Below, in pieces: positions 16,780-37,281 of a stretch of 64,000 nt of DNA (positions within the stretch are counted from its first letter, which is position 1; each line of letters begins with the position of its first letter). The DNA is from Fidelibacterota bacterium (GTDB lineage: Bacteria; Pseudomonadota; Alphaproteobacteria; Rhodospirillales; Rhodospirillaceae). Location of the stretch: NCBI GenBank assembly GCA_947476275.1, contig CANJPQ010000004.1, positions 1 through 64,000 on the forward strand, read 5' to 3'. The position numbers were made by a program, and so were the translations under genes. The notes under the pieces are model-generated. The model searched no databases and was not told the DNA's origin. It worked only from the letters and a program-made list of their open reading frames with translations.

Positions 16780-18291
16780 CTAGTTCACGCCCAGGTTCGA
16801 CGTACGACGACCGGAGAAGTCGACGAACAGGTTGCCCGGGTTGCCGGTGATGTGCTGCACGTAGCCACTCGGGAGCGTGCCCGTGATGACCAGGTTGTAG
16901 CCGGCTTCGGCCGCCGTCGCGATGCCAGCGCCAGTTTCGATCTGCTTGGCAGTCAACTGGAGGGTGGAGAGACCCGGCACCGAAGCAGTGGTGAAGGTGC
17001 CCATCACCGCACCAGACGATGAGTTGTAGACCGCGATGACCGGGATGCCTGCGGTCGTACCACCGTTGGTGATGCGCACGTAGGACGCCACGACCGTGTT
17101 GGTCGACGGCAGGACGGAGTTCACCTGGACGGTGAAGCCCGCACGCGAGATTGCGCTCGCTGTTGCGTTGATCGCCGGATAGGTGGTGCCATTCGTCGTC
17201 ACGTTGGCGATATACGTCTCAGCAGTCGTGCCAGCGGCGGCCGCGGTGATGGACGTGGTGCCGTTGAACTCGACCTGGATGTAGTTGGTGCCCGAGTTGG
17301 CCGCCGAGAAGAGCGTCGCGCCGGTCAGGTTGGTCGAGGAGAACGTCGCCGTGCCCGCCAAGGTCGTGTTGGTGAAGAGAGTGCCGTCACCACGAACAAA
17401 GCGAACGTTGGCAACTGCCGGATCCGACAGAGCCGTGCTGGTCACGACCACGCCGAGGTTACCAACCAGATTGGACACGTTGCCCGTGCTGGTCAGGTCG
17501 GAGTAGAACGCGCCGGTTGCCGTGAACGCGATCTGGGTCAGAACGACCGTCAGGCCAGCGGACGCGAGGCCGGAAACGGTCTGGGTGACGTTGGTGTACG
17601 GTGTCGCGCCAACGCCGAGGCTCACAGTCGCGGTGCCCGTGGTGTTGTTAATCAACACGGTGTTCTGCGAGATGATCACCGTCGCCGCCGTCATGGTTTC
17701 GTAGGTGTTGTTCGAGTTGGCCTGTTCGACGACCGAGCCCGTCAAGACAACGGAGGCGCCCACGGTGGCGAGACCGGTAGCGGCGTTGTAAACGAGGCCG
17801 CTGAGGCCGATGCCGCTGAAGGAAGCCGACGAAGTGCCGGTCAAGCAGTTGGTGATCTGGAGCTGCGTCGACAGAACGCCGATGGAGCAACCAGCAGCAG
17901 CGCCGCTCGTGGTGTTGTTGATGGTCGAGGCGCTCTGCGTGTTCACCAGCAGCAGCGCCGCCGGTGAGCTGCTCGCCAGCGTAGTGGAGTCGAAGGTAGC
18001 GCCCGTCGGGACGATCACGATCTTCGGTCCCAGGCCCTGGGTGTAGGAGTTCGTGAAGTTCGCGAAGACGAACTGCGGGCCAATGGTCGTGCTAGCAGAG
18101 TAGCCAGTGCCGCCGAACAGCTGCGCGCCGATCTTAACAGCCGTGAAGCCGGTGGTCGGCTTGTTGTTGCCTGGAATGAAATTCGTGGTGAGGGCTGTGT
18201 AGGCGTTGAAAGTGCCTGCCTGAGCGCCGGCAGTGAGCGTGGTCGAAGCGAGCAGTGCGCCGCCAAGACCCAAAAGGTAGTTATTTCGCAT
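16780..18291 (-). CDS. Thr/Ser/Asn-rich secreted surface protein, S-layer-like (candidate T2SS substrate)
   Basis: 503 residues. A signal peptide (LLGLGGALLASTTLTAGAQA, cleavage near residue 26) is followed by a long chain extremely rich in Thr, Ser, Ala, Gly, Asn and Val and poor in Lys, Arg and His, with alternating hydrophobic residues that suggest beta-strands. Only two cysteines occur (Cys135 and Cys149), probably a disulfide. The protein ends in a basic/aromatic patch, DFSGRRTSNLGVN. Composition, its own promoter, a very strong terminator and monocistronic structure resemble S-layer or other abundant surface proteins. It lies directly beside the T2SS pseudopilin operon. I know no named family; the role is inferred from composition and context. 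Confidence 0.7.
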   Translation of the reverse strand: MRNNYLLGLGGALLASTTLTAGAQAGTFNAYTALTTNFIPGNNKPTTGFTAVKIGAQLFGGTGYSASTTIGPQFVFANFTNSYTQGLGPKIVIVPTGATFDSTTLASSSPAALLLVNTQSASTINNTTSGAAAGCSIGVLSTQLQITNCLTGTSSASFSGIGLSGLVYNAATGLATVGASVVLTGSVVEQANSNNTYETMTAATVIISQNTVLINNTTGTATVSLGVGATPYTNVTQTVSGLASAGLTVVLTQIAFTATGAFYSDLTSTGNVSNLVGNLGVVVTSTALSDPAVANVRFVRGDGTLFTNTTLAGTATFSSTNLTGATLFSAANSGTNYIQVEFNGTTSITAAAAGTTAETYIANVTTNGTTYPAINATASAISRAGFTVQVNSVLPSTNTVVASYVRITNGGTTAGIPVIAVYNSSSGAVMGTFTTASVPGLSTLQLTAKQIETGAGIATAAEAGYNLVITGTLPSGYVQHITGNPGNLFVDFSGRRTSNLGVN

Positions 18292-18397: not shown

Positions 18398-18647
18398 GCC
18401 CTCGGCGGCCGCAAAAAGTGTCTAAGAATAGCCGCCAAGGCTAAGACTTTCTTAGGGATTTCGGCTTCGCGGGCGGTTGGGGCCGAGGCGTGATCCCTGG
18501 CGGCCCAATAGTCGCGGGCGCGCATGCCAGAATCCGCAGCAATGCGATTAAGAAATCGCCAGATTCGCATAGTGCTATTGTTTTTCCACAGCTTTTTTGA
18601 ATAAATGCGCCTCAGTTCCGCGATGCGGATTCATGCGAGGTCTCCCT
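18398..18647. other. Intergenic region between divergent genes with a nested inverted repeat
   Basis: No gene is supported here. At 18422-18455 there is a nested inverted repeat: CTAAGAA (18422-18428) pairs with TTCTTAG (18449-18455), and TAGCC pairs with GGCTA inside it. It lies about 25 bases upstream of the -35 of the secreted-protein promoter, a possible activator or operator position. The rest is AT-richer than its surroundings towards 18580-18600 and probably holds the promoter of the small plus-strand gene, but no clear -35/-10 pair was found for it. Confidence 0.45.
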
Positions 18648-18986
18648 ATGCCCAAGCTTTTGTTGCCCTTTTCACTGATCTTTGCCGGTATCCTTGCCGT
18701 CCCTGTCGCATCCGCGGCGACCTACGAGGCCCACGTCGAGAAGGGGAATACGGTCGTTATCATCGGCAAGACGAAGAAGGCTGAGCCTATGCGCTGCGCG
18801 ACCAGGGTTCTGTTCGAGTACACGGACCCGAAGGAGCCGGGAAAGCGTCAGACGGGTGTCCAGATATGCCAAGCTGGGAGGGTCATCCCCGGCAAGCCCA
18901 CGGAAATGTGCCGGATGGACTATCCCGTGGTGGACATCACCTTGAAAACCAAGGTGGAGGTCGTGAAGGATTGTTTCCCGAGCTAG
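18648..18986 (+). CDS. Small secreted protein with four cysteines, function unknown
   Basis: 112 residues from the ATG at 18648, which has GAGG eight bases upstream; open frame extends further up (to TTG 18597) but without a signal. The signal peptide LLLPFSLIFAGILAVPVASA is cleaved near residue 23. The mature part is about 90 residues with four cysteines (MRCATRV, QICQAG, EMCRMD, KDCFPS), which would allow two disulfides in the periplasm or outside. It is divergent from the Thr-rich protein gene. Its stop overlaps the stop of the convergent TPR-glycosyltransferase gene. No family recognised. Confidence 0.68.
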   Translation: MPKLLLPFSLIFAGILAVPVASAATYEAHVEKGNTVVIIGKTKKAEPMRCATRVLFEYTDPKEPGKRQTGVQICQAGRVIPGKPTEMCRMDYPVVDITLKTKVEVVKDCFPS

Positions 18987-20617
18987 GTTCTTCCGGGCGC
19001 GCAGTTTAAGGCGACGCCTGTCACGACGGAGAGTGCGTCGCGGACTGCCGCGAGCGAGTCCGACCAATCGCCTCTATCGCCACCCGCGCGAAAAATGCGT
19101 ACGGCCGGGTACCAGGGTGACTGCGTGCCATTCTCGAACCAGTACCACAGTCGTGCCCGCGCTGGCGGCACAAGAACCCAGGTCGGCACGCCGAGCGCGC
19201 CGGCCAAATGGGCAGTGGTGTTGCTCACCGTGACGACGAGATCGAGTGCCGCGATATAAGCGGCCAGCGCGTCGAGATCGCCGAACCTGTCGAATGCCGC
19301 GGTCTCGTGCAACACGGCGCCATTCGGCAATTGATCGATCTCCTCGCGCGTATCGCCATATTGCAGATTGAAGAACGCCGCCTGTGGGTCGCGCAGGTGG
19401 GGTATGAAATCCGCCAGCCGCAGGCTTTTTGCCGCGCCGTAGATCGGGTTGGCGCTTCGCCATGAAAGTCCGACCAATAGCGGCTTCGTATCGGCTTGTG
19501 CGCGCAAGTCATCGCGGAAGTTTGCAGTACGGTTGCGATCCGCCGCGAGATATATGCGGCGACTAGGAAAATCGGAAAGCGCGCGCCGCCGCCACCGTCC
19601 GAGATCCAACAGAGGCGAATGGAAATCGCACGGGCCGATATCCGGTGCCGGTGCGCTTGGTACGTAAGCGACTACCCGCGCTGCTGGGAACGAGCGCGCG
19701 AACAGCGGCGCGAGCCGCGGCTCGCAGCCGATCACGCACGCGCGCGCGGCGGCGACAATCTCCGGAACGATGCCTGCATAGAGGATGGCGTCGCCGACGC
19801 CCTGATCGTTCCAAACGAAAATATCTTTCCCGCGCAGATCTTCGCCCTGCCACTGCGGCCACGGCCACCTCACCGGCGGTGCGCGATAGGGATTTTCAGG
19901 ATCGGCGTTGCGCAGCGCATAGCCATCCCAACCGGCCGCGAGCTCGCCGCGCGCTAGGCGCGCCAGGCCGAGATTCACGCGTGGCGTGACGTAGGTTTCA
20001 CCGCCCGCCGCCGCGCTCTGCTCGAAGGCCGCGATCGCCTCGCGGCTTGCGCCGACCGCATTGAGATAGGAGCCGAGATCGTTGAGCGCCTGCGGCCAGC
20101 CTGGCTGCAGCGCAATTGCATCGCGCATGTATCCGATCGCGGCGGTGAAGTCCCCGGCGGCTGCGGCCTCGCCACCGCGGCCGAAGGGCGCGCGCGGATC
20201 TTGCGGGCAGGCGGCGGCCATACGCGCAAAGGCCGCAGCAGCTTCGTCGCGGCGGTTGTACTTACGCAAAAGCAGCGCGGCATTGAGATGTGCGTCGGCG
20301 TAATTCGCGCGTAAGCCGATCGCAAGCTCATACCCGGCAAGTGCCTCGTCGCGACGTTTGAGTGCGGCGAGCGTATTCGCGCGATTGAAGTGCGTTTCGG
20401 GAGACTCGATGCCGGATGCGATCGCACGGTCGAACAGCGCAAGCGCCTCTTCCCGCCGCCCCTCGGCATCGGCAATCACGCCCAAGAGATTCAGGGCATC
20501 CGCGTTTGCCGGATCATCGCGCAGCACGTGCGTGTAGACGGCGGCGGCATCGGCGATGCGCCCCGCTTGATGCAACGCGACAGCTCTTTCTAGAAGTTCG
20601 CGTGCATCGGAGATCAT
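18983..20617 (-). CDS. TPR-glycosyltransferase (FlmG/GT-B heptosyltransferase-like), copy 1
   Basis: 544 residues. TPR repeats cover about 1-215 (VYTHVLRDDPANADALNLLG). The GT-B-like domain covers about 235-544 with FVWNDQGVGDAILYAGIVP, LLVGLSWRSANP, FFNLQYGDTREEI and VVTVSNTTAHLAGALGVPTWV. The conserved Ser-Asn-Thr-(Thr)-His block followed by Gly-Ala and a Pro-Trp strand is the nucleotide-sugar site shared by all paralogues in this locus. Caulobacter FlmG, with this architecture, transfers pseudaminic acid to flagellin; the acceptor here is unknown. Last gene of the cluster; its start overlaps the stop of the next copy upstream (ATGA). Confidence 0.8.
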   Translation of the reverse strand: MISDARELLERAVALHQAGRIADAAAVYTHVLRDDPANADALNLLGVIADAEGRREEALALFDRAIASGIESPETHFNRANTLAALKRRDEALAGYELAIGLRANYADAHLNAALLLRKYNRRDEAAAAFARMAAACPQDPRAPFGRGGEAAAAGDFTAAIGYMRDAIALQPGWPQALNDLGSYLNAVGASREAIAAFEQSAAAGGETYVTPRVNLGLARLARGELAAGWDGYALRNADPENPYRAPPVRWPWPQWQGEDLRGKDIFVWNDQGVGDAILYAGIVPEIVAAARACVIGCEPRLAPLFARSFPAARVVAYVPSAPAPDIGPCDFHSPLLDLGRWRRRALSDFPSRRIYLAADRNRTANFRDDLRAQADTKPLLVGLSWRSANPIYGAAKSLRLADFIPHLRDPQAAFFNLQYGDTREEIDQLPNGAVLHETAAFDRFGDLDALAAYIAALDLVVTVSNTTAHLAGALGVPTWVLVPPARARLWYWFENGTQSPWYPAVRIFRAGGDRGDWSDSLAAVRDALSVVTGVALNCAPGRT

Positions 20618-22659
20618 GAAAACTTCCCTGCGGCCCAGGCGCCCAATTCGCCCGCGAGGCGCGCATCAATATCTTTCGCCCAGGCGGAGATCGGCTCGCC
20701 GGCGCTCTGCCGGAACAAGCGTGCCGACGGATACCATGGGTTATCGCTGCGCTCCGTCAGCCAATACCACAGCACACCTCTCGCATAGGGCAGCAGGACC
20801 CACACCGGTACGTTCTGCGCACCGGCGGTGTGGACTGTCGTGTTGGACGTGGAGATCACGAGATCCATCGCCGCCACCTGCGCAAACGCCGCATCCATGT
20901 CCTTCAGCGGATCGACCTCCGTGTCCTGGATTACATCGATCCCGAGCTGCTCCCTCACGGCGGCGAGATCGTCTCTGCAATCGCCATACTGGAGATTCAC
21001 GAAAGTGATTCCAGGTACCTTCAGGATCGATACGAGATCGACGAGGCGCAGACTCTTCGCAGTGCCGGTGCGCTTGGACTTGCTGCGCCACGAGATTCCG
21101 ACAAGCAGGTTGCCGGGAGTTTTTCCCAGATAACGACCGCGCAATGCTTCGACCTTGGCGGCATCCGGCTTCAAGTAGCCGACGTGCTTCGGGAAGCGCG
21201 CAAGGCTTTGCCGCAGGTGCTCGCCGAGGCTCGGCATCGCAATCTGGAAGTCGGGTTTCAAATCCTGAATCATCTTCGCGGTTTCGCTGGGGGCGAACAC
21301 TTTCGCGCCCGGGAAAGAGCGCGCAAAGATCGGCACCAGGCGATCGGAGCATTCGATCAAGCAACTCTGGGCGGTTCCGATCACGTCGCCGAGCATGCTG
21401 GCGTAGAGGATCTCATCGCCGATGCCCTGCTCGCTCCACACGAGCAACGAGCGGCCGCCAAGCGGCTCGCCCTTCCAATACGGCGGCGGCTCGGCGCGAC
21501 GCGTGAGCGTTTCCTTGGGGACGTCGAACCGCCGGTTGTAGTCGTCCCAGCCGCCTTCGAATTGACCGACGAGAAGCCGAATAATGCCGCGATAGAATCG
21601 CGTCGGCGCGTCGTTCGGCTTCAACGCCAGAGCCTTGTCGAACTGGGACAGGCTTGCCGCGAACCAACCGCGCTCAACGAACACCGCCGCGATATTCGCA
21701 TAGGCTTGGGTCAGCGTTGGGTCGAGGTCGAGCGCGGCTTCCAGCAGCTCCAGTGCGCCGTCATGATCGTCCTGGTCTTTCAGGATCAGCGCCAGGTTCA
21801 CGTAAGCCCGCACGAACGTGGGATGCGCCGCAATCAACGCGGTCAGCCGCCGCCGTGCTTCATCCTGCGCGCTGATCTTCGTCAGCGAGTCCGCAAGATT
21901 GAAATGCAGGTCCGGGTCGTCGGGCCGCAAGGCGACGGCGCTGCGCTGGGCCGCGACCGCTTCCGCGAGGCGGCCTTCGAGCTTCAGCCACTCGCCGAGA
22001 TTGCTGAACGCTTCGGGCCAGTCCGGGTTGATCTTCAACGCCACGCGCAGATGATCGATGGCATCGCGTCGCCGGCCGCGCCGTGCCAGCAGATTGGCCA
22101 GGGCGAAACGCACGTACGGATTGTTCGGCGCGAGCTGAAGGGCGCGATCGTAGGACGCCCGCGCCGCATCTAACTCGGTCTCGGTGATTGCTGCTTCCGC
22201 CAATTGATCGCCAAGGCCGTGGTGCGCGCGGGCATCGCTCGGACACGCTGCGGCCATGCGCGCGAATGCAGCGCGCGTTTCCTCGCCGCGGCCGAGCTTG
22301 CGCCGCAGCAGTGCTGCGTTGAGATGGGCATCCGCGTAAGTGGCGCGCGCTGCTATCGCGCGCTGATATCCAGCGAGCGCGTCGTCGTATCGTGCAAGCC
22401 CGGCAAGCGTGTTGGCGCGATTGAAATGTGCCTCCGGGAAGGCCGCTCGAGCCGCGATGGCCCGATCGAACAACGCGATCGCCTCTTCGCGCCGGCCATG
22501 GGCGTCGAGGATGACCGCCTTGAGATTGAGCGCGTCGGCGTTTTTGGGCTCCTTCGATAGCACGCGATCGTACAGCGTCGCGGCGTCGGCGAGCCGCCCT
22601 GCCTGATGCAGGGCTACGGCTTCGACCAGGACCTTGTGCGTATCAGCCATGACGGCCAC
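20614..22659 (-). CDS. TPR-glycosyltransferase, copy 2 (long TPR array)
   Basis: 681 residues; the ATG at 22650 is an alternative start. It has the longest TPR array of the single-domain copies, roughly ten repeats over 1-370 (for example LYDRVLSKEPKNADALNLKA). The transferase domain is about 385-681 with LLVWSEQGIGDEILYASMLGDV, LLVGISWRSKSKRTGTAKSLRL, FVNLQYGDCRDDL and ISTSNTTVHTAGAQNVPVWVLLP. Nearly the same first 130 residues are found in copy 1, so the two arose by duplication. A longer TPR groove suggests a different or larger protein partner. Confidence 0.8.
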   Translation of the reverse strand: MAVMADTHKVLVEAVALHQAGRLADAATLYDRVLSKEPKNADALNLKAVILDAHGRREEAIALFDRAIAARAAFPEAHFNRANTLAGLARYDDALAGYQRAIAARATYADAHLNAALLRRKLGRGEETRAAFARMAAACPSDARAHHGLGDQLAEAAITETELDAARASYDRALQLAPNNPYVRFALANLLARRGRRRDAIDHLRVALKINPDWPEAFSNLGEWLKLEGRLAEAVAAQRSAVALRPDDPDLHFNLADSLTKISAQDEARRRLTALIAAHPTFVRAYVNLALILKDQDDHDGALELLEAALDLDPTLTQAYANIAAVFVERGWFAASLSQFDKALALKPNDAPTRFYRGIIRLLVGQFEGGWDDYNRRFDVPKETLTRRAEPPPYWKGEPLGGRSLLVWSEQGIGDEILYASMLGDVIGTAQSCLIECSDRLVPIFARSFPGAKVFAPSETAKMIQDLKPDFQIAMPSLGEHLRQSLARFPKHVGYLKPDAAKVEALRGRYLGKTPGNLLVGISWRSKSKRTGTAKSLRLVDLVSILKVPGITFVNLQYGDCRDDLAAVREQLGIDVIQDTEVDPLKDMDAAFAQVAAMDLVISTSNTTVHTAGAQNVPVWVLLPYARGVLWYWLTERSDNPWYPSARLFRQSAGEPISAWAKDIDARLAGELGAWAAGKFS

Positions 22660-24289
22660 GCGTGCGCCATGCGGCGAAATCGGCTGCGACGCGCGGGATC
22701 ACATCATCCGCCCAGCTCATCTTCGCCGCGCCACGGTCTTGTCGGTACAACCGTGCCGACGGATACCACGGGCTGTCGGTGCGGCCGGCGAACCAGTACC
22801 ACAACAGACCCTTCGCGAACGGCAGTATTACCCACACCGGGATATTCTGCGCGCCGGCAGTATGCACGGTGGTGTTGGATATCGAGATCACCAAGTCCAT
22901 CGCCGCCACCTGCGCGGCGTACGCATCCATGTCCTTCAGCTGATCCACGTCGCCGTCGTCGATCACGTCGACTCCGAGGGACTGCTTCACATCGGCAAGG
23001 TCCGCGGCGCAATCGCCGTATTGCAAGCTCACGAAGGTCACCCCCGCCGTCTTCAACACCGGCGCGAAGTCGAGGAGCCGCAAGCTCTTGCCTGGCACCT
23101 GTCTGCTGCGCCAGGAAATGCCGACCAGCGCATTGCCCGGCGCGCGCGCGAGATACTTTTCGCGCAGTTCGGCCGTCGTGGCAGCATCGGCCTTGAGATA
23201 GCCAGCGTGCTTGGGAAAGCTTTCCATGGTGGGCCGCAGATATTGGCCCAGGCTCGCTGCTGAAATCTGCACATCGACCGACGAGGCGGGCGAGATGCGG
23301 GTTTCATAGCTTTCGTAGGCGAGCACCTGCGCAGTCGGGAACGAGCGCGCGAAGATTGGCGCCATGCGCTTGGAGCACTCGATCACGCAGTGCTTGGCGC
23401 GCGCGACGATGTCGGGCACCGCGTTGGCGTGCATGATCTCGTCGCCGGGGGATTGTTCGGTCCACACCAGGATCCGCCGGTCGCTCAGATCGCTCCCGTC
23501 CCAATACGCCGGCGGGCGGTTCCGGCGCGGGCCGGTCTCGCCCGGATTGTCGAAGCGCTGCTCGTATGCGGCCCACCCGCGTGGCAGATCGCCGCGATAG
23601 AGAAGAGCCGCGGCGTGGTCGATCTGCAGTGACTTGTCGCCGGGGCAAACCTGAAGTCCACGCTCCACTACCGCTGCCGCGGCATGCAGGCGTCCGGTCT
23701 CGCGCAAGGTTGCGGCGATATTCCGATACGCCATCGCGAGCGTTGGCAGGATAACGAGCGCGCGGTCGTAGTGCCGCATCGCCTCGTCGTAGCGTTGCTG
23801 TGCTTTGTAAAGATTGCCAAGATTCAGATGCGCGGCCACGTCGTTTGGATCGATGCGGACACATGCTTCGTAAGCCGCCCTTGCGCCGGCAGCGTCGCCT
23901 TGGAGGTCGAGCGCGTGTCCGAGTTGGAACTGCGCGCGCCCATCGCCAGCATCCATGGCGACGGCGGCGCGATAACAGTCTGTTGCGGCCGCCGCATCGC
24001 CCCGCGCTAGTTGCGCTAAGCCGAGATCGACGTGCAAGGGCGCAGTGACTGGGCCGAATTTCATGGCCCGGGTGAGCAGCTCAAGCCCCTCGTCCGCCGC
24101 CGCCATGCGCGTTCGGATCGCGCCGAGCATGTGAAGTGCCGCCGCATTCTTGGCTTCACGCCGCAGTATCTCGCGGCAGATCGCCTCGGCTTCGGGCAGG
24201 CGACCCGATGCGGCAAGCTTTGAGGCCTGTGCCAAAGCCTGCGAAATCTGCGCGGCGGTTTGAATAAGCGGCGGGCGGGCGGCGCACAT
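22643..24289 (-). CDS. TPR-glycosyltransferase, copy 3
   Basis: 548 residues. TPRs cover about 25-215 (LGNLYKAQQRYDEAMRHYDRAL). The transferase domain covers about 240-548: ILVWTEQSPGDEIMHANAVP, ALVGISWRSRQVPGKSLRL, FVSLQYGDCAADL and ISISNTTVHTAGAQNIPVWV, with LLWYWFAGRTDSPWYPS near the end. The transferase domain is close to that of copy 2. It overlaps the start region of copy 2 by 17 bases and follows copy 4 by seven, so all belong to one transcript. Confidence 0.8.
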   Translation of the reverse strand: MCAARPPLIQTAAQISQALAQASKLAASGRLPEAEAICREILRREAKNAAALHMLGAIRTRMAAADEGLELLTRAMKFGPVTAPLHVDLGLAQLARGDAAAATDCYRAAVAMDAGDGRAQFQLGHALDLQGDAAGARAAYEACVRIDPNDVAAHLNLGNLYKAQQRYDEAMRHYDRALVILPTLAMAYRNIAATLRETGRLHAAAAVVERGLQVCPGDKSLQIDHAAALLYRGDLPRGWAAYEQRFDNPGETGPRRNRPPAYWDGSDLSDRRILVWTEQSPGDEIMHANAVPDIVARAKHCVIECSKRMAPIFARSFPTAQVLAYESYETRISPASSVDVQISAASLGQYLRPTMESFPKHAGYLKADAATTAELREKYLARAPGNALVGISWRSRQVPGKSLRLLDFAPVLKTAGVTFVSLQYGDCAADLADVKQSLGVDVIDDGDVDQLKDMDAYAAQVAAMDLVISISNTTVHTAGAQNIPVWVILPFAKGLLWYWFAGRTDSPWYPSARLYRQDRGAAKMSWADDVIPRVAADFAAWRTRGRHG

Positions 24290-24296
24290 GATCGCG

Positions 24297-25991
24297 CTAC
24301 GCTCCCGCCGTGCGAGCGGCGAAGTCCGTTCCGAGCAGGGACGCGGTCTCCGCGATAACGCTGCTGCCCTCGCCGGTATCGCGCATCAATCGCATCCGCG
24401 GATACCACGGGCTGTCGTGGCGCTTGTCGAACCAGTGCCACAGCGCGCCGACACCCGACCGAACGACAGTCCACGTCGGGATGTTGAGTGCGCCTGCCAT
24501 GTGGGCCGTAGCATTGCTGGTGGTCACGACCGTATCCATCGCGCTCACCTGGGCTGCGAACGCGTCGAGGTCGGTCAGCGGATCGACGGCGGGGTCGGAG
24601 ATGATCTTGATGCCGAATGCCGCTTCCACCGCTGCAATCTCCGCCTTGCAGTCGCCGTACTGCAGGCTGACCCACGTGATGTCGGGCAGTTTGAGCAACG
24701 GCGCCCAGTCCATCAGCGGAACGGACTTGGCGGCGTTCATCTTGGCATTCGCAGACGTGCGCCAAGCAAGGCCGATGACCGTCCGTCCGTCGCGCCGATA
24801 GGCGGCGCGCATCTGCGCTGTGCGCTCCGGGTCCGCGCGCAAGTAGCCCGCGTGATTCGGAAACGCTTTGAAGTCCCGCCGGAACTGGCGCGCCGTGTCC
24901 GCGAGCGCGACCTGCGCCGCATAGGGCTCGCGGAATCGCGGGTGCGGCGGATCGGTTCGTGGGAAAAATGAGGCGCCGGGGAAAGATCGCGCAAATAGCG
25001 CGACGAGGCGCGGCTCGCATTCGACCGTAAGCTTGACGTTTTGCGCAAGGATGTCGGGGATCAGATTGGCGAACATGATCTCTTCACCGACGCCTTGGTC
25101 CGTCCAGGCGAACAAGTGTTGGCCCGGGACGACATCGCCGGTAAGGCGCGGCGCCATGAACATGCGCTGACCCAGGAAGCCCACGTCGCGGCGGTGTCGC
25201 GCCGCGTAGAGGCTCCAACCTTCGGCCAGTTGGCCGGTTTTCAACAGCGCGGTCGCGAGGCTGTAGCGGCTGATCGCGTCTTCAGGCTGAAGTTCGACCG
25301 CCGCCCGTAACTGTTCGATGGCGCCTTCCGAGCGTCCCGCGCGGTCCAACATCACACCCAAGTGTTCGCGGCTGGAGCGGTCGCTCGGATCGATTTGAAG
25401 CGCCAGCCGAAAATGCTTCTCCGCTTCGGCGATATTCGCGGCCTGCATCATCAGCACGCCGATCAAGCGAATCGCGCCGACCCGGCGCGGCTCATGACGT
25501 AAGGCTTCTTGGGCTTTCTCAAGCGCGGCATCGGGCTGGCCGAGATCCCGCAGCGCATAAGCCATCGCTTCGAGCGCATCGCCCCAGCCCGGACGCAGCG
25601 TGAGCGCCTGAGTAAACGCCTCGCGCGCAGCGGCCGGCGCGCCGAGCGCCTGGTGACAATGGCCGGTCAGGACAAGCGCTTCGGCCGACGCGGGGTTGAG
25701 TTCGAGGGCTCTGCTCAGTGCTTTGAGCGCATCGGCCGCGCGGCCGACTCGCCACAGCGAAGACCCGAGATTTACCCAGACTTCGAAGTTGGTGACCGCA
25801 GGCGTTGCCGCGCGCTCGAACAGCTCCACCGCATCGCCGATCTGGCCTTGCTGGAATGCGATCGTTCCGGCGAGGTGCAACGCGTCGCTGTTGTTCGGTT
25901 CTTCCGCCAGTCCCGCGCGATAGCCCGTCAGCGCTTCCGGCAGTTTGCCGGCGCGATGAAGTGCCATCGCTCGTTCAAAGTGCGGGTTCAT
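24297..25991 (-). CDS. TPR-glycosyltransferase, copy 4
   Basis: 564 residues from the ATG at 25991; the frame is open to 26051, but that extension overlaps the GT8-like gene. TPRs cover 1-235 (GYRAGLAEEPNNSDALHLAG). The transferase domain covers about 255-564 with LFAWTDQGVGEEIMFANLIPDI, VIGLAWRTSANAKMNAAKSV, WVSLQYGDCKAEI and VTTSNATAHMAGALNIPTW. The Ser-Asn-Ala-Thr-Ala-His variant replaces Ser-Asn-Thr-Thr-Val-His, and WHWFDKRHDSPWYPR replaces the usual Tyr-Trp block, so it is the more divergent member. Eleven bases separate it from the GT8-like gene. Confidence 0.8.
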   Translation of the reverse strand: MNPHFERAMALHRAGKLPEALTGYRAGLAEEPNNSDALHLAGTIAFQQGQIGDAVELFERAATPAVTNFEVWVNLGSSLWRVGRAADALKALSRALELNPASAEALVLTGHCHQALGAPAAAREAFTQALTLRPGWGDALEAMAYALRDLGQPDAALEKAQEALRHEPRRVGAIRLIGVLMMQAANIAEAEKHFRLALQIDPSDRSSREHLGVMLDRAGRSEGAIEQLRAAVELQPEDAISRYSLATALLKTGQLAEGWSLYAARHRRDVGFLGQRMFMAPRLTGDVVPGQHLFAWTDQGVGEEIMFANLIPDILAQNVKLTVECEPRLVALFARSFPGASFFPRTDPPHPRFREPYAAQVALADTARQFRRDFKAFPNHAGYLRADPERTAQMRAAYRRDGRTVIGLAWRTSANAKMNAAKSVPLMDWAPLLKLPDITWVSLQYGDCKAEIAAVEAAFGIKIISDPAVDPLTDLDAFAAQVSAMDTVVTTSNATAHMAGALNIPTWTVVRSGVGALWHWFDKRHDSPWYPRMRLMRDTGEGSSVIAETASLLGTDFAARTAGA

Positions 25992-26001
25992 CGATGGACA
26001 T

Positions 26002-26691
26002 TCAACCTGCGTGCAGCATCCGCTCGCGTTCGGACCGCCAAAGTTCGGCATAGCCGCAGTTCTTGAAACTCTCGAAGTAGGGTCCGCCTTCCGTGAAGTG
26101 GACGAGCGAAAGTTCCTTCGGCGGCAACGACGGATCGTAGTCGACCAGGTGATTCCAACGGTGCGGGATCTCGCCGATCAGATCGTCGTTCTCGAGCCAC
26201 TTGAACTGATGCAGCTGCAGCCCCGTGGCTGTATTTACGTACTCCGGGGTCAGCGCGGCGCATTTGGCGTTGTTGAACAGGATCACGCTCGACCAGTTCT
26301 TCTTTTCGTATTTGGTCTGCGGCTCGCCGAGGAACTTCACGGTCTCCTTCGGAACATGCTGGTGCTTCACGACCTGAACGGCAAAGCGGTCGTCGCGGAG
26401 CTTCCAAAGATTGGCGACGTCGTCGAGGGCCAGCATGTCGCAGTCGCAGAACAGGCTCCAGCCCTCGTAGCCGCTCAAATAGGGCACCAGGAACCGACTG
26501 AAAGAGAAGTCCGTGGACTGCAGCGCATTGCGCTCGCGCGTGAACAGGCCCTGCAATTCCGAGAGCATGAGCGGCGCAATGCTCACCGGCGCCGAGGCTT
26601 GACGGTAAAAGCTGTGAGCCAGCACGTGGAACGCGATCGTCTCGCGCGCATCGTAGCCGATGAAAATCCGGATCATGCCTTGCGCTGTCAT
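26002..26691 (-). CDS. GT8-like glycosyltransferase
   Basis: 229 residues with an opening RIFIGYDARETIAFHVLAHS and SLFCDCDMLAL, in which Asp-Cys-Asp (83-85) is the metal/nucleotide-binding DXD motif. The family is a single GT-A domain related to GT8 and found in surface-glycan loci. It is the only gene without TPRs in the run from 18983 to 32852, so it may extend a glycan begun by the TPR enzymes. It starts 25 bases after the stop of the 1002-residue gene; the ATG at 26676 is an alternative start. Confidence 0.8.
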   Translation of the reverse strand: MTAQGMIRIFIGYDARETIAFHVLAHSFYRQASAPVSIAPLMLSELQGLFTRERNALQSTDFSFSRFLVPYLSGYEGWSLFCDCDMLALDDVANLWKLRDDRFAVQVVKHQHVPKETVKFLGEPQTKYEKKNWSSVILFNNAKCAALTPEYVNTATGLQLHQFKWLENDDLIGEIPHRWNHLVDYDPSLPPKELSLVHFTEGGPYFESFKNCGYAELWRSERERMLHAG

Positions 26692-26716
26692 CTTGAACCC
26701 CTATCTCCTTCGTAAC

Positions 26717-29700
26717 TCAACCGGGTCTTCCTGTCGCCCACTCCGCGAGGCGTTCGGCGGCGGTGGTGATTACAGGTCTCCAGTCCGCCGCCGAGGACTG
26801 TCGCAGGAATTCTACCGACGGATACCATGCCGAGCGGGCTTGACCGCGGAACCAGTACCAGATGCGGCCCCGGCCCTCGGGCAGCAGTACCAAGGTCGGA
26901 ATCCCTAGGGCGCCGGCGGTATGCACGGTCGTGTTGCTGACGGAGACAACGAGATCCATCGCCGCGGTCTGGGCGGCGAAGGCATCCATGTCCTGCAGCG
27001 GGTCCACGGACGCATCGGTGAGGATGTTCACGCCGAGGCGGGTGCGGATATCGGCGAGATCGGCGGTGTGATCGCCGTACTGAAGATTGACGAACGTGAC
27101 GTCGGGCACCGTGAGCATGGGGGCAAGATCGGCCAGCCGCAGGCTCTTGAGGGCGCCGATCTCGGGATTGCCGCTGCCCCAGGACAGGCCCACGAGTTTG
27201 GTGCCCGGCCGCCCGGCCTGATACGTCGCGCGCAACGCATCGCGGCGCGCCACGTCTGGCAGCAGAAAGCCCACCCGCGCCGGGAAGGACTCCATGGTTG
27301 GCCTGAAGCGTACACCCAACTCCGCGACCGACATCTGCAGGTCGATCCGCCGCGGCAAAGGCTCTGCGAACGTGCCGACGTCAGCGGCGGGGAATGAACG
27401 CTTCAGCAGCGGCACCATGCGCGGCGAACAGCGGATTGTCACCGCGCGGGCGACCGCCATCAGGTCCGGCAGGATGCTTGCGGCCATCAACTCATCGCCC
27501 AGGCCCTGCTCGGTCCACACCAGCACACGTTTGCCCCTCAGGTCGTCGCCCGCCCAGCGTTTGACCGGGAACATGTCGTGGCGGACCTTGGCCGAGGGAT
27601 GCTTCAGGCGCCAATCGAATTCGGACCATCCTTCGCGCAGGCGTCCCGCCGCGAGCAGGGTGATCGCCTTGTTGTAGTGAATGTCCACGTGATCCGACCG
27701 CCGCGCGAGCACGTCGTCCATCCGCGTGACCGCTTCATCCGTGCGGCCAAGGTCGTCCAGCACGCCGGCGCTGTTCAGGGTGACCGTGTCCTTGTCTTCG
27801 ACGGTCGCGAGCGCACGTTCGAATGTCTCCAACGCTTCCGCGCTGCGGCCGCAGGCGCGCAAGGCCAGGCCGAGATTGTTCAGCACCTCGCCCTTCTCCG
27901 GCACGATGGCCAGTACGGCGGCGTAAGCGTCGACCGCTTCGGCGGGTCGTCCCAGGTTGGCGATCAGGACCGCCCTTGCATTGAGCGCATGCCAATTGTC
28001 CGGCTGCGCGGCAATGGCCTCGTCATAGATCGCGATGGCATGTTCGTAGAATTGCCGCGCGGGAATGTAGTGGGAGTGCTCGCGCTGGGCATCGCCTTGA
28101 CGCTTGGAGAGGCCGGCAATGGCCGTCAACGCCTCTGACCGAAGGCTCGGCAGCTGCGCCAGCCGGCGATAGACTTTCTCCGCGGTCGCCCAAGCCTGCT
28201 TTGACGCAGCGGTCTCACCCAGCGCGCGCAGGTAGTCGGCCGGGGTCGTCAAAGCGCCGGCAGCATGTGCCGCATCAACGATGCCGAGGGCGGCCTCGAA
28301 CAGGGCCGGCAGCCATGCGCCCTCCGCGGTCTTGCGTACGATTTGAACCGAAGGATAGGCGGAGAGAGACGCGCGATCTCCGGGCGCGCCGGCGGGCGGC
28401 GCAAGGCACACGGCCGGAACGCCCAATGCGCCGGCAAGGTGCGCCACCGTGTTGCTCGACGTGACGACGAAATCCAGCGCCGCGATTTGCGCGGCATAGA
28501 GATCGAGGTCGCCCAGCGGATTGATCGCCGCATCTTGGGTAATCGCGATGTTCATCGCCTGCGCGACCGCCTGAATTGCGGGCGCCACGGGCCCATGCTG
28601 CAGGCTGACGTAGACCGCGCCAGGCACGTTCAGTACCGGACCCCATTCCCCAAGGTTCACAGAACGCTCGCGCCCGTCCAAGGCGCCGAAGCTCTGCCAG
28701 GCAATGCCCACCCGCAGCTGCGGCGACGTCGCTGTGGCATAGCGTCCGCGCAATTCGGTGCGGCAGGCCTCATCGGCGACCAGGTACGACCGACGTTCAG
28801 GCCCAGCCGCCAAATGCACGCCCAGCGCTGCGGCCGGCGTCTGTGCCGTAAGCCCCGCGAGTTCCGCCGGCGTTGGCGCGCGGTCGATGAACGTCAGGGT
28901 CGGGAAGGAGCGGCGCAGGAGCGCGCCGATGCGTGGAGAGCAGCGCACCACAGCATTGATGCTGGCGGCAGTGAGGCAGGGGAGCAGGCGCGCGCAGGCG
29001 ATCTCTTCGCTCGGCGTGCCGTGCATCCAGATGAACAGCCCCCCACCGGCAATATCCTGGCCTTGCCACGCCGGCAACCCGGCGCCCAAGTTCGCCGGGC
29101 CGAGCAGGGCGGCATGGGCGAACGCGGTCCACCCGGCACGTTCGTTGCCGGCGGCGAATTCCGCCTCGCCGAGATCGCGCGCGAGCAGCGGTTCGGCGGG
29201 CATGACGCTCATCGCATTGCGTGCGCTGGCCAGCCATCCACTTGCGTCGCCGGCGGCGCGCAAGGACTGGCCGAGCCGCAGGTGGGCTTCAACATTCCGC
29301 GGCGCCGCGCCGACCTGGCTGCGAAACAGCGGAACAGCCTCGGCCCCACGGCCGGTCCGCAGCAGCAACAGCGCCAAGCCGGATTGGGCTTCGGCGAGGC
29401 GCCCGAACTTCAGCGCCTGTCGGTAGTGGCTTTCCGCACCCGCGATGTCGCCAAGCTGCGCCTTGATGTCGCCCAGGGTGCAGTGGGATGCGGCGAGGTC
29501 CGGCTTCACGATCAAGGCGCGCCCGAGCAGGTCTTGGGCTTTTCCGACATCGCCGCGCTGGGCGGCAAGCAGCCCCGCCATGTGCAGCAGGCCGGCGTCG
29601 CGCGGGTTCTGCTTGAGCAGCGTGTGATAGACGCGATCAGCCTCGTCCAGGGCGCCACGCTCGTGCGCGTCCATGGCCTGCTGGCGCAGACGGGCGGTCT

Positions 29701-29725
29701 TGTCGCTCATGGCGCGGGCGTCCAC
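26717..29725 (-). CDS. Tandem-fused TPR-glycosyltransferase with two TPR and two transferase modules
   Basis: 1002 residues, or 997 from the ATG at 29710. Module 1 has TPRs at about 10-200 and a transferase-like domain at about 220-475. Module 2 has TPRs at about 500-690 and a transferase domain at about 715-1002. Module 2 is canonical (VLVWTEQGLGDELMAASILPDL, FVNLQYGDHTADL, VSVSNTTVHTAGALGIPTLVLLP). Module 1 is degenerate: FIWMHGTPSEEIACARLLP replaces the Trp-Thr-Glu-Gln-Gly block, LQHGP replaces LQYGD, TSSNTVAHLAGALGVPAV lacks one residue, and the Tyr-Trp motif is missing. Module 1 may be a non-catalytic substrate-binding copy. Arose by in-frame gene fusion. Confidence 0.8.
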   Translation of the reverse strand: MDARAMSDKTARLRQQAMDAHERGALDEADRVYHTLLKQNPRDAGLLHMAGLLAAQRGDVGKAQDLLGRALIVKPDLAASHCTLGDIKAQLGDIAGAESHYRQALKFGRLAEAQSGLALLLLRTGRGAEAVPLFRSQVGAAPRNVEAHLRLGQSLRAAGDASGWLASARNAMSVMPAEPLLARDLGEAEFAAGNERAGWTAFAHAALLGPANLGAGLPAWQGQDIAGGGLFIWMHGTPSEEIACARLLPCLTAASINAVVRCSPRIGALLRRSFPTLTFIDRAPTPAELAGLTAQTPAAALGVHLAAGPERRSYLVADEACRTELRGRYATATSPQLRVGIAWQSFGALDGRERSVNLGEWGPVLNVPGAVYVSLQHGPVAPAIQAVAQAMNIAITQDAAINPLGDLDLYAAQIAALDFVVTSSNTVAHLAGALGVPAVCLAPPAGAPGDRASLSAYPSVQIVRKTAEGAWLPALFEAALGIVDAAHAAGALTTPADYLRALGETAASKQAWATAEKVYRRLAQLPSLRSEALTAIAGLSKRQGDAQREHSHYIPARQFYEHAIAIYDEAIAAQPDNWHALNARAVLIANLGRPAEAVDAYAAVLAIVPEKGEVLNNLGLALRACGRSAEALETFERALATVEDKDTVTLNSAGVLDDLGRTDEAVTRMDDVLARRSDHVDIHYNKAITLLAAGRLREGWSEFDWRLKHPSAKVRHDMFPVKRWAGDDLRGKRVLVWTEQGLGDELMAASILPDLMAVARAVTIRCSPRMVPLLKRSFPAADVGTFAEPLPRRIDLQMSVAELGVRFRPTMESFPARVGFLLPDVARRDALRATYQAGRPGTKLVGLSWGSGNPEIGALKSLRLADLAPMLTVPDVTFVNLQYGDHTADLADIRTRLGVNILTDASVDPLQDMDAFAAQTAAMDLVVSVSNTTVHTAGALGIPTLVLLPEGRGRIWYWFRGQARSAWYPSVEFLRQSSAADWRPVITTAAERLAEWATGRPG

Positions 29726-31194
29726 GCGCGCAGGCGCGCGGCAACTTCATCGATGGCCGTCGACCATTGCCCCGCGTCGGCCTGTCGGACCAAGCGTACG
29801 CCCGCGTACCACGGACTGTCGGTGCGATTCAGGAACCAGTACCAGATGCGGCCCCGGGCCGCGGGCACCATCACCCACGTCGGCAGGCCGAGTCCGCCGG
29901 CAAAATGCACCGTGGTGTTGCTGACCGAGATCACAAGATCCATCGCCGCAACCTGCGCCGCGAAGCTGTCGAGATCCGTCAGGGGATCGATCGTCGCATC
30001 GCGCCGGATTTGAATCCCGAAGCGCTGTTCGGCGTCACGCACTTCGTCCGCGCAGTCACCATACTGAAGACAGACGAACTGTATGCCGGGCGTGCGCAGG
30101 ATCGGTTCCCAGGCGGACAGGGCGAGGGATTTCTCGCCCTCCACGCCGGTCGCGCGGCTGCGCCAGGAGATGCCGACGAGTGGTGTCTGCGCGCCGCCGC
30201 GATATTGGGCGCGCAAGGCGTCGCGACGCGCGGCGTCTGCCTGCAGGAACGCGCGCGGCGCGCCGAAGCTTTCCTGTGTCGGCCGCAGGTACCGTCCGAG
30301 CTCCGACAATGACGCTTGAAAATCAAAGGCTGCCGGACTCACGTTTTCGACCTTGTCGACCACCGCGATGCCCGGGAACGACCGGCGGAACAGCGGCGTC
30401 ATCCGGGGCGAGCACAGCACTGTCACGGCGCCGCCGCGGGCGAGAAGATCGGGCAGCATGCTTGCAATCAAGATCTCGTCGCCGGGGCCTTGCTCGGTCC
30501 AGACCAGTACACGTGCCCGGTCGAGAGCTTCGCCGGCCCAATAGGGTAGGGCGAAGACGCCATGCTTCGCCGCCGTGTCCGGGCGGCGCCAGCGCCACAC
30601 ATAGTCCGCCCAGCCCTCGCCGAACCGTTCGCGGGACAGCAGGGTCAGGGCCCGATAATAGCGCGCGGTGATATTCTCGGGATCGCGGGCGAGCAGCCTG
30701 TCATAGGCAGGCAGGACGTCGTCGAAGCGACCTTCGACCTCGCAGGCAATCGCATAATTGGTGAGCCCTGTCGCAAGCTCCGGATCTAGCTGCAGCGCTT
30801 TGTCGAAGCAGACCGCCGCATCCTTGTAGCGCTGGAGCTGAAGCAAGACACCGCCGAGATTGTTCTGCGCCGTCGCGTTCTGCGGCTGCAATTTGGCGAC
30901 GGTGCGCAGGTGCCGTTCTGCGTCCGCGAATTTTCCATCGCGGATCAGGTAGGCGCTGAGATTGAAATGTGCATCGGCGAAGTTCGGGCTGGCCTTGAGC
31001 GCCTGCCCGATCAGCGCGAACGCTTGCTCATATTCGCCGCGGTCGCCGTGAATGCGGCCGAGCAGGTGCAGCGCATCGGGATGCTTGGGCTGCAGCGCCA
31101 GGATGGCGCGATAGCCGCGTTCCGCGCTCGCGATGTCGCCGCGGCGGTGATCCGCCATGGCGGCATCGAGCATGTTTTGGGCGACGGTGCTCAT
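29707..31194 (-). CDS. TPR-glycosyltransferase, copy 6
   Basis: 495 residues from the ATG at 31194, which shares ATGA with the stop of copy 7; the open frame to 31356 lies inside copy 7. TPRs cover 1-185 (GYRAILALQPKHPDALHLLG). The transferase domain covers about 205-495 with VLVWTEQGPGDEILIASMLPDL, PLVGISWRSRATGVEGEKSL, FVCLQYGDCADEV and ISVSNTTVHFAGGLGLPTWV. GRIWYWFLNRTDSPWY closes the domain. The shortest single copy. Confidence 0.8.
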   Translation of the reverse strand: MSTVAQNMLDAAMADHRRGDIASAERGYRAILALQPKHPDALHLLGRIHGDRGEYEQAFALIGQALKASPNFADAHFNLSAYLIRDGKFADAERHLRTVAKLQPQNATAQNNLGGVLLQLQRYKDAAVCFDKALQLDPELATGLTNYAIACEVEGRFDDVLPAYDRLLARDPENITARYYRALTLLSRERFGEGWADYVWRWRRPDTAAKHGVFALPYWAGEALDRARVLVWTEQGPGDEILIASMLPDLLARGGAVTVLCSPRMTPLFRRSFPGIAVVDKVENVSPAAFDFQASLSELGRYLRPTQESFGAPRAFLQADAARRDALRAQYRGGAQTPLVGISWRSRATGVEGEKSLALSAWEPILRTPGIQFVCLQYGDCADEVRDAEQRFGIQIRRDATIDPLTDLDSFAAQVAAMDLVISVSNTTVHFAGGLGLPTWVMVPAARGRIWYWFLNRTDSPWYAGVRLVRQADAGQWSTAIDEVAARLRAWTPAP

Positions 31195-32852
31195 GCGGTC
31201 CACGCCTTCAACGCAGCGGCGGCGTCCGCCAGGGCCGGTGCCCATTGGCCCGGGGCGGCTTGCCGGAACAATTTCATCGTCGGGTACCAGGGACTGTCGG
31301 CGCGGTCGCGGAACCAATACCAATGCGCCCCGTGTCCATAGGGTACTAATGTCCAAACAGGTTTGCCGAGGCCGCCGGCGAAATGGACCGTGGTGTTGCT
31401 CACCGAAATCACAAGGTCCATCGCCGCGACCTGCGCCGCGAAGCCATCCAGATCGGTGAGCGGATCGACGGTGGGATCAGTCATCACCTCGGTTCCCGCA
31501 ATCTCCGCAGCGGTGTCGCCGTATTGGAGGCTATGGAAGTGCACACCCGGCATGGACATGATCGGCTGCCAGTCAGCAAGGCGCATTGACTTGAATGCGC
31601 CGGTGGATGGGCTGCCGCTGCGCCAGGAAATGCCGATATTGCCCCCCTGCGGCAGCCGCGCCTTGATCGCCGCGACCCGCTGTGGATCGGGGGTGAGGAA
31701 TGCCTGGCGCGGTGGGAACGACGCGAAGTCGGGCCGGAGATATCTTGCGGCATCGGCCAGCGCGAACTTGAAATCGAACGCGCCGAGGTCCGTTGCCGTG
31801 TGCGGCTTGACGCTGACGCGCGGGAAGGAACGCTGGAGCAGAGCTACGAGACGCGGCTCGCACAACACTGTGCAATGCGCGGCGGCCTGGCTGAGGTCCG
31901 GCAGCAGACTTGCCGCGAGGATTTCATCGCCAAGCCCGTACTCGGTCCACACGATGACGCGCTTTCCGGAAAGTTCCTCGCCTTGCCAGCCCGTCGCATC
32001 GGCGGGGGCAAAGGCGCCGGGCTGTCCCGCGATGCGGAAGGCATAGTCCGGCCAGCCATTGGCAAAGTCACCGATGGTGAGCCGCGTATAGCCGCGACAG
32101 CCGCGGGCCTCGGGCATGTCGGGCGCCAAGCGCAGCGCGGCATCGAAATCCGCAATCGCGCCGGCGAAATCGTTCTTGAACCGCCGCGCGTTGCCGCGAT
32201 TGAGGTAGGCGAATGCGAAACTCGGATTGAGGGCGATGGCTTGGTCGTGCAGGGCGATCGCCGCATCGAGATCGCCGCGCTCCTCCTGGATGCGGCCGAG
32301 GTTGGTAACCGGCGCCGGGGCGCGGGCCTCCAACGCCATCGCTTTGCGGAACGCAGCTTCGGCGGCCGGCGCGTCGCCGCGTTTCAGCAGGACGTCGCCC
32401 AGTTGATCCCACAGGGACGTCTCGTTCGGCATCAGTGTGAGGGCCTGACGATACGCCGCGTCAGCCTCTTCGAGCCGGCCTTGGCGATGCAGGCTGTTGC
32501 CGAGGACTTGCCAAACGTGCCCGTTCTTCGGCGCGCTCTGCGTGGCGGCACGCATCACGGTTTCGGCTTCGGTGAAGCGGCCGTTCTGCCCGAGCAGCGT
32601 ACCCAGTACCAAGCTTGCACCTGTGACCATCGGCGCGCGCTGCAGACAGGCGCGTAACGCCGTCTCGGCGGCGGCATGGTCGCCGATCCGGAACAAGGCC
32701 AGGCCGAGGCCGACCATGGCGCCCACTTCGTTCGGCGCGGCGACAAGGATTTCGCGAAAGATGCCGGCAGCATCGGCGAACCGGCCCGCGTTGATCAGGC
32801 CCTCGCCGCGCTTGAGCGCCTGCGCAATGTTAGCGGGTGTGCTCATGGTCAT
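31191..32852 (-). CDS. TPR-glycosyltransferase, copy 7 (first gene of the cluster)
   Basis: 553 residues; the ATG at 32846 is equally possible. TPRs cover 1-245 (IFREILVAAPNEVGAMVGLG). The transferase domain covers about 260-553 with VIVWTEYGLGDEILAASLLPDL, NIGISWRSGSPSTGAFKSMRL, FHSLQYGDTAAEI and ISVSNTTVHFAGGLGKPVW. The Glu-Tyr-Gly block and a slightly shorter loop after LQYGD set it apart. It lies 81 bases downstream of gspE on the same strand, so the whole glycosyltransferase run may be expressed with gspE. Confidence 0.8.
   Translation of the reverse strand: MTMSTPANIAQALKRGEGLINAGRFADAAGIFREILVAAPNEVGAMVGLGLALFRIGDHAAAETALRACLQRAPMVTGASLVLGTLLGQNGRFTEAETVMRAATQSAPKNGHVWQVLGNSLHRQGRLEEADAAYRQALTLMPNETSLWDQLGDVLLKRGDAPAAEAAFRKAMALEARAPAPVTNLGRIQEERGDLDAAIALHDQAIALNPSFAFAYLNRGNARRFKNDFAGAIADFDAALRLAPDMPEARGCRGYTRLTIGDFANGWPDYAFRIAGQPGAFAPADATGWQGEELSGKRVIVWTEYGLGDEILAASLLPDLSQAAAHCTVLCEPRLVALLQRSFPRVSVKPHTATDLGAFDFKFALADAARYLRPDFASFPPRQAFLTPDPQRVAAIKARLPQGGNIGISWRSGSPSTGAFKSMRLADWQPIMSMPGVHFHSLQYGDTAAEIAGTEVMTDPTVDPLTDLDGFAAQVAAMDLVISVSNTTVHFAGGLGKPVWTLVPYGHGAHWYWFRDRADSPWYPTMKLFRQAAPGQWAPALADAAAALKAWTA

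Positions 32853-36219: not shown

Positions 36220-37281
<1,062 letters not shown>

Follow-up and report, generated by a model that had tools for sequence, protein, structure and literature searches.

The gene array and its setting

The stretch of DNA considered here, called the window, comprises positions 1-64000 of contig C4 (CANJPQ010000004.1) in a genome of 4.48 Mb and 77 contigs, and it contains an array of glycosyltransferase (GT) genes lying inside an operon of the type II secretion system (T2SS). Between 18983 and 32852, all on the minus strand, seven genes (T1 to T7) for proteins that join tetratricopeptide repeats (TPRs) to a GT domain (TPR-GTs) are found together with one GT8-like gene, with eight GT domains of the former kind in total, as T5 is a double gene with the domains T5a and T5b. 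The array interrupts the T2SS operon between gspE and gspF, and the same interval holds, between T1 and gspF, the gene of a Ser/Thr-rich protein of 503 residues, designated SUB503. The TPRs were found by Pfam in all seven open reading frames (ORFs), and each of the seven proteins has a C-terminal GT domain of about 270-295 residues, for which no Pfam match was obtained either with the seven whole proteins at E 0.001 or with two of the domains scanned alone at E 10. Compared with the first row of their alignment, the eight GT domains show 35-53% identity, and in a genome-wide search with the GT domain they score 353-447 bits, two other places reaching 283-301 and the remainder at most 163; the likeness among the eight array domains is far above chance.

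The junctions between the array genes are short overlaps or gaps; for T6, whose ORF as listed covers 29707-31356, a start at 31194 would leave an overlap of 4 bp. The preliminary description of this DNA, which had seen seven TPR-GT paralogues head to tail with a GT8-like gene inserted, is thus confirmed by the Pfam repeats, the GT-domain scores and the short junctions, and the variation of the TPR parts that it mentioned is reflected in the length of the six single TPR-GT proteins (495-681 residues). The T2SS setting, that is, the gspE-gspF interval and SUB503, was not remarked there. The GT8-like protein is 69-77% identical to 10 relatives; its Pfam GT8 match stays below the threshold (13.7 bits, cut-off 24.3), and no convincing sequence relative was met among the PDB sequences. 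The 691 bp that separate SUB503 from T1 hold a small ORF on the opposite strand (18597-18986, plus).

As judged from the gene content, the surrounding operon encodes a T2SS, with a gspC-M set that includes the secretin, the ATPase and the pseudopilins and with a prepilin peptidase in the same window; the C component is weak and the L component is positional, the gspL candidate (9202-10320) having no family match in the model scans.

Conservation of the array with SUB503 and the T2SS

The surroundings of SUB503 were read in 26 loci, one from each of 26 of the 40 genomes with SUB503 or its C-terminal module (see below), where the next gene means the next among the genes recognised by the references used. 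The next gene downstream is gspF in all 26 loci, with gaps of 161-343 bp, and the next upstream is a TPR-GT in 25, with gaps of 28-695 bp. In 17 genomes that were laid out, two of them only partially (G009 and G060), the GT8-like gene is always present and 15 have a double or triple GT gene. Six to nine TPR-GT genes were counted in each of the 15 larger layouts, some of which are cut by contig ends. The arrangement of the window recurs in this way among related, uncultured alphaproteobacteria. The operon is rearranged in several genomes, with the same parts retained and an extra TPR-GT often placed between gspJ and gspK.

The census of the family covered 73 genomes, with SUB503 or the module in 40, a TPR-GT (E below 1e-60) in 39 and a GspK relative in 37. 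The genomes with SUB503 or the module have the TPR-GT in 37 of 40 cases, versus 2 of the 33 genomes without either (G017 and G066, with one weaker TPR-GT each), and GspK in 37 of 40 versus none of the 33. Over the order, 40 of 317 genomes carry SUB503 or the module, all within the family, and the other 244 have neither at E 1e-8; in an even draw of 385 genomes of the class (E 1e-6) the window's own genome was the only carrier. A SUB503 relative was found in 17 named loci, whose titles read Rhodospirillaceae in 8 cases, Alphaproteobacteria in 3, Rhodobacteraceae in 1 and Candidatus Marinimicrobia in 5, the last probably mis-titled. A plasmid origin was rejected, as 72,556 plasmid records contained no relative of SUB503.

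Judging from gene order and distribution, the T2SS genes, six to nine TPR-GTs of the type of Caulobacter FlmG, the GT8-like transferase and SUB503 are one inherited unit. From this linkage and co-distribution we infer that SUB503 is secreted by the T2SS. The explanation towards which we lean, with modest confidence, is a glycosylation-and-secretion island in which the cytoplasmic TPR-GTs would modify SUB503 before its export by Sec and the T2SS. The TPR-GT gene carried between gspJ and gspK by several genomes, together with the fact that pilins are known targets of glycosylation, would also suit enzymes that glycosylate the parts of the T2SS, such as the pseudopilins or the secretin, for its function or assembly. 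However, to our knowledge the T2SS loci elsewhere manage without such enzymes, six to nine of them are many for the short pseudopilins, and the constant partner that does not belong to the machine is SUB503, so that we regard a modification of the T2SS parts as quite improbable.

SUB503 and its C-terminal module

The predicted SUB503 protein is poor in Lys and Arg, and consists of an apparent signal peptide (about residues 1-26, by eye), a mature part with 28.9% Ser+Thr (over 16 non-redundant homologues, versus 7-16% for 23 other proteins of the window, a 24th row, 5902-7975, being out of frame and not counted) and, at about residues 383-497, a C-terminal module of about 105 residues. In an alignment of 25 rows (19 non-redundant), gathered by whole-protein searches and not selected on the signal peptide, the conservation of the signal peptide (18214-18291, codons 1-26) is 0.63 versus 0.45 for the mature part, and the single window with the highest conservation falls within the module (residue 477). 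An exported control of the same loci gives the reverse, 0.37 for the signal peptide versus 0.52 for the mature part (13 rows, 9 non-redundant), while a second one (35166-35684), with only two non-redundant rows, is uninformative. Residues 1-20 are the most conserved 20-residue window in the alignment of the 17 named loci, which were located by a pattern inside the signal peptide and whose alignment is therefore biased toward it. The unusual conservation of the signal peptide may point to a specific export route or timing.

A terminator-like hairpin is present 3' of SUB503 in 18 of 21 loci (one, L056, being poorer), versus 0.7 in mononucleotide shuffles, and the codon usage of SUB503 is more biased, with an effective number of codons (ENC) of 33.9 versus 41-45 for the seven GT genes. 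The structural model of SUB503 is a tandem of immunoglobulin (Ig)-like sandwiches. It matches adhesins, pilins and integrins weakly (best Z 8.5), and only a tandem Ig-like architecture is concluded from these matches.

No Pfam model reaches its cut-off over the module. Twelve distinct proteins, apparently exported as judged by eye, were read that carry it twice or four times, at the C-terminus or close to it; six of the module proteins were scanned, and two have an S8 and two a trypsin-like peptidase domain, one had a sub-threshold M23 match and one had no match. The module may be a tag for the T2SS or for surface retention. As the module occurs in so many proteins, the S8 and trypsin peptidases included, and in this family alone (order set and class draw), the acceptors might be the module-bearing proteases and others, with SUB503 as just one of them and the array decorating a set of T2SS clients. 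That we consider unlikely: SUB503 alone is linked to the array, the stretches of 11.5-20 kb read around five other module proteins of this genome contain no TPR-GT of the array family (GT41 genes are near one of the five, on contig C10), and those five proteins have a Ser+Thr content of 16-21%.

Fold and active site of the GT domains

The AlphaFold model of T6 (pLDDT 94) is composed of 12 TPR helices followed by a GT-B fold. The closest structures to its GT part are 3tov_B (Z 17.8, 258 residues, 3.4 A), heptosyltransferase II 1psw (Z 16.8) and WaaC 2h1f (Z 16.2), while the best Foldseek matches of the whole chain are OGT and SPY. According to this model, the GT fold of the array enzymes is heptosyltransferase (GT9)-like; by sequence, the domain has no match to GT9 in Pfam and none that convinces among the PDB sequences, by phmmer or profile. 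The GT41 family was rejected for the array, PF13844 being absent from all seven proteins and none of the places listed for it in the genome falling within the array.

Residue 227 of the T6 model pairs with residue 1 of WaaC, which would bring Asp239 of the GDE motif, if gap-free, to residue 13 of WaaC, presumably the base of that enzyme. Over 135 domains the acidic position of this motif is Asp in 102, Glu in 32 and another residue in one; 134 retain the Lys of KS/KT, which only T5a of the window has replaced, and the His of SNTTxH occurs in all 135. The transferase motifs described previously as conserved are thus real, but not kept in every copy: T4 carries GEE, that is, Glu at the acidic position, and in T5a SEE replaces GDE, Arg replaces the Lys, LQHGP is present and WYWF is lost. 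Ten other domains of the T5a class keep the Gly, Asp, Lys and His, and the reading frame of T5a (28271-29080) is intact; T5a is likely a pseudo-enzyme retained in a fused protein. Because seven of the eight window domains keep the conserved G[DE], Lys and His positions, it is unlikely that all array copies are inactive, an outcome that the preliminary description had named as speaking against its interpretation.

Homologues outside the operon and the donor sugar

Relatives of the T6 GT domain occur on 93 plasmid records, and the neighbourhoods were read in five regions, the analysts' own choice. The best plasmid homologue (42% over 97%), in Roseomonas, lies directly before flagellin, flaF and flbT; a Pseudoroseomonas homologue (39%) likewise immediately precedes these three genes, and on Azospirillum AZO_p3 the flagellin genes are about 3 kb from the TPR-GT. 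In the window's own genome, a FlmG-type TPR-GT on contig C6 (L077:1-6975) shares its gene run with an ABC transporter of type I secretion (609 bits, under the model cut-off of 725.55), a protein that looks HlyD-like by eye and a Thr-rich repeat protein with 34% Ser+Thr, which the end of the contig truncates. To judge from these neighbourhoods, the position of a TPR-GT beside a likely exported acceptor is frequent, not universal.

The fold of the domain, which is that of the lipopolysaccharide heptosyltransferases, the sugar-nucleotide genes nearby and a polysaccharide flippase gene at 50761-52047 would be in line with an array that makes a surface polysaccharide or a lipid-linked glycan, in which case the TPRs would merely assemble the enzymes and the T2SS would be a bystander. 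We hold this for hardly probable, as the genes scanned in the conserved block included no recognisable flippase or polymerase, the homologues adjoin flagellin in two of the five plasmid regions and lie close to it in the third, and the array is co-inherited with SUB503 and the T2SS.

As for the donor, genes for PseB, PseI and PseF, all above the curated cut-offs, lie at 36244-39063 (plus), beside gspE, and PseC is above its cut-off on contig C16; the organism may make pseudaminic acid. Pseudaminic acid was rejected as the general donor, though possible in this organism, because PseI is not associated with the system: it is above the cut-off in 13 of the 40 genomes with SUB503 or the module versus 9 of the remaining 33 (Fisher p 0.80), and the PseI model finds nothing, even at E 0.001, in six genomes that combine SUB503 or the module with TPR-GTs and GspK. 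ADP-heptose is only a lead, as the gmhA-like SIS gene at 4286-4903 and those in the loci of two relatives score 91-114 bits, all three below the gmhA cut-off of 209.

History of the paralogues

The GT tree comprised 135 domains of 17 genomes (quick maximum likelihood, midpoint root, with the SH-like approximate likelihood ratio test, SH-aLRT, as the only support measure). T7, T6, T5a, T5b, T4 and T1 each cluster with domains from other genera that occupy an identical or adjacent place (SH-aLRT 86-99), the T1 clade including one out-of-place domain, from the double gene of G060; T2 and T3 are the only within-genome sisters among the window domains. These cross-genus positional clades reject a recent tandem expansion for six of the eight domains. 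The TPR parts follow the same course. In the classes that hold a window domain (80 of the 135 domains, the other 55 being unclassed), the nearest TPR stretch of another genome belongs to the same class for 79 of 80, with the reservation that the GT half of this test is circular, the classes being drawn from the GT tree; the TPR and GT distances are correlated with a Mantel r of 0.67, the maximum of 500 permutations being 0.14. A shuffling of TPRs between the enzymes was rejected, the TPR and GT parts being inherited together. According to this phylogeny, each enzyme is inherited as a whole and in its place, which argues for old, distinct and retained roles.

The history suggested previously is to be modified accordingly in three respects. 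The expansion by tandem duplication holds as far as the paralogues stand in a tandem array, but for six of the eight domains it is not recent. For a change of the TPR part independently of the GT part there is no sign: the two agree class by class, which is a comparison of classes and not of the full topologies, whose identity the preliminary description had named as speaking against its interpretation. The proposal of a separate protein acceptor for each enzyme has no support, the constant companion being one protein, SUB503; its other version, a position of each enzyme's own on one acceptor, may hold in the form of separate roles on SUB503.

Proposed mechanism and its weighing

The glycosylation-and-secretion island would operate as follows. 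SUB503 would be produced in large amount, and in the cytoplasm the TPR superhelices would grip it while the GT9-like domains add sugars to its Ser and Thr residues. Each position-specific TPR-GT would be responsible for a step or site of its own, and the glycan would probably be lengthened by the GT8-like enzyme. SUB503 would then pass the inner membrane via Sec, fold into its Ig-like domains and be exported by the T2SS whose genes surround its own. In a broader form, which we put forward tentatively and with some doubt, the locus could represent a new Gram-negative glycoprotein secretion system, composed of a T2SS, its own TPR-GT assembly line, one dedicated and highly expressed glycoprotein whose constrained signal peptide paces the export until the glycosylation is done, and an undescribed beta-rich C-terminal module that sends or anchors exoproteases via the same machine.

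Several observations weigh against the glycosylation-and-secretion island. At the level of the loci, the upstream neighbour of SUB503 in G018 is gspK on the opposite strand, the TPR-GT beside SUB503 in L054 is on the other strand, and G002, which is outside the count of 26 loci, has its SUB503-like copies at the ends of several contigs, where the stretches that were read contain no gspF. At the level of the genomes, G057 (98% complete), G078 and G084 have the module but no such TPR-GT or GspK, and the co-distribution is confounded by descent: it concerns 8 of 23 genera, perhaps one clade, and common descent could explain part of it. The bias in codon usage is matched by gspE (ENC 33.7) and a TonB receptor (32.8), and the SUB503 model is of moderate confidence (pLDDT 70.5). 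Finally, two of the five plasmid regions hold a TPR-GT without flagellin or a secretion partner, and a close paralogue on contig C5 of the same genome sits among apparently unrelated genes.

Features of the window and neighbouring observations

The coordinates of the features are collected in Table 1. The TPR-GT41 gene of the window occupies the slot in which several relatives carry an FlmG-type TPR-GT, and the genome holds 48 matches to PF13844, about 25 genes judging by the frames. Downstream of the T2SS genes (1590-4157, minus) a TPR protein is encoded whose unassigned C-terminal part has a DxD-like motif, adjoining a gene of the GSCFA family. Two neighbouring proteins at 39038-41307 (minus), without a Pfam match, look like paralogues; G003 has relatives of them close to gspE, and G002 close to the array.

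Table 1. Features of the window and module-bearing proteins of other loci (positions refer to the window unless prefixed by a locus).
Feature	Position	Strand	Basis
gspD secretin, span of the listed ORF, true start probably internal	5902-8292	-	Secretin 154.7 bits
gspC-like	7989-8564	-	weak GspC matches under cut-off
gspL (by position) and gspM	8561-10320	-	gspM 8561-9205: T2SSM_b 22.7 bits, cut-off 21.7
gspK	10193-11338	-	T2SSK_1st 35.8 bits, cut-off 26.2
TPR-GT41 (OGT-type) gene, between gspJ and gspK	11470-13281	+	PF13844 276 bits
Three further pseudopilins, gspH/I/J by order	13271-14825	-	N_methyl matches
gspG, major pseudopilin (start chosen by the analysts)	14884-15339	-	TIGR01710 164.8 bits, cut-off 88.85
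gspF	15356-16570	-	T2SSF 157 bits
Terminator-like hairpin after SUB503, 11-bp stem with 8 GC, then TTTTT	16720-16745	-	similar ones in relatives
SUB503, 503 aa, Ser/Thr-rich, proposed acceptor and T2SS cargo	16780-18291	-	composition, signal peptide, synteny
TPR-GT T1, adjoins SUB503	18983-20617	-	Pfam TPR, tree
TPR-GT T2, sister of T3, longer TPR part	20614-22659	-	Pfam TPR, tree
TPR-GT T3, sister of T2	22643-24289	-	Pfam TPR, tree
TPR-GT T4, adjoins GT8-like gene; true start may be ~25991	24297-26051	-	Pfam TPR, tree
GT8-like gene, 229 aa, DCD motif	26002-26691	-	relatives; 17/17 layouts
TPR-GT T5, double gene: degenerate T5a (28271-29080), intact T5b (26720-27568)	26717-29725	-	Pfam TPR, alignment, tree
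TPR-GT T6, 495 aa from ATG at 31194, class P2	29707-31194	-	Pfam TPR, clade, AlphaFold model
TPR-GT T7, 553 aa, class P1, first after gspE	31191-32852	-	Pfam TPR, GT-domain homology, positional clade
gspE	32934-34685	-	T2SSE 452 bits
gspO-like prepilin peptidase	41308-41826	-	Peptidase_A24 44.8 bits, cut-off 26.5
Peptidases and similar proteins with 2-4 C-terminal module copies	L043:3163-5514, L044:10662-12809, L045:8507-10588, L046:9914-12478, L047:8586-10679		

Significance and comparison with known systems

If the glycosylation-and-secretion island is true, the cytoplasmic O-glycosylation by TPR transferases extends beyond flagella to type II secretion, and a Gram-negative counterpart of the accessory-Sec glycoprotein islands is at hand. 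With six to nine different TPR-GT pairs inherited together around a single acceptor, the locus would be a testable case of protein glycosyltransferases dividing the work on one protein, and the C-terminal module that SUB503 shares with other proteins would help to address how the T2SS recognises its cargo. Among the matches listed from the openly licensed PMC literature there is no report of TPR glycosyltransferases in a T2SS operon, which is weak evidence of novelty.

The experimentally studied precedent is FlmG of Caulobacter, a flagellin O-glycosyltransferase that is needed for the modification of flagellin and whose TPR part binds it (PMC7591256). FlmG shares with the array enzymes the N-terminal TPR and the C-terminal GT-B domain, and homologues of the window type (42% identity) adjoin flagellin in Roseomonas, which is a comparison with these homologues and not with the Caulobacter FlmG sequence itself. 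In contrast to FlmG, there are seven enzymes here instead of one, the T2SS and SUB503 replace the flagellum and the flagellin, the neighbours of the array are gspE, SUB503 and gspF and not flagellin, and the supply of pseudaminic acid is no general feature of the array system.

The accessory-Sec islands of streptococci comprise a Ser-rich surface protein, its exporter and up to eight accessory GTs besides the core pair (PMC7661464), with the glycosylation taking place intracellularly before the export (PMC5578698). The likeness consists in one acceptor, many transferases and their own exporter in a single locus. The differences are that these islands are Gram-positive, employ SecA2/SecY2 and not the T2SS, carry Ser-rich repeats as cargo, and use other GT families than the array.

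TibC, of the autotransporter heptosyltransferase family, is described as a dodecameric GT-B enzyme, likened to WaaC and with an Asp as the candidate base, that glycosylates secreted adhesins (PMC4358343). The parallel is that a Gram-negative GT-B enzyme modifies adhesins destined for secretion; the differences are that TibC is a single dodecameric enzyme and that its substrates are secreted by the autotransporter route. TibC is not known to have a TPR array.

With OGT and SPY of the GT41 family, the best whole-chain Foldseek matches, the array enzymes share a TPR superhelix joined to GT-B; unlike GT41, none of the seven array proteins matches PF13844. The C-terminal module, for its part, would resemble the GlyGly-CTERM tag of the rhombosortase system as a C-terminal tag common to surface-kept proteins that the T2SS secretes, and differs from the short tripartite tail of that system in being a beta-rich module of about 105 residues that is often present in tandem.

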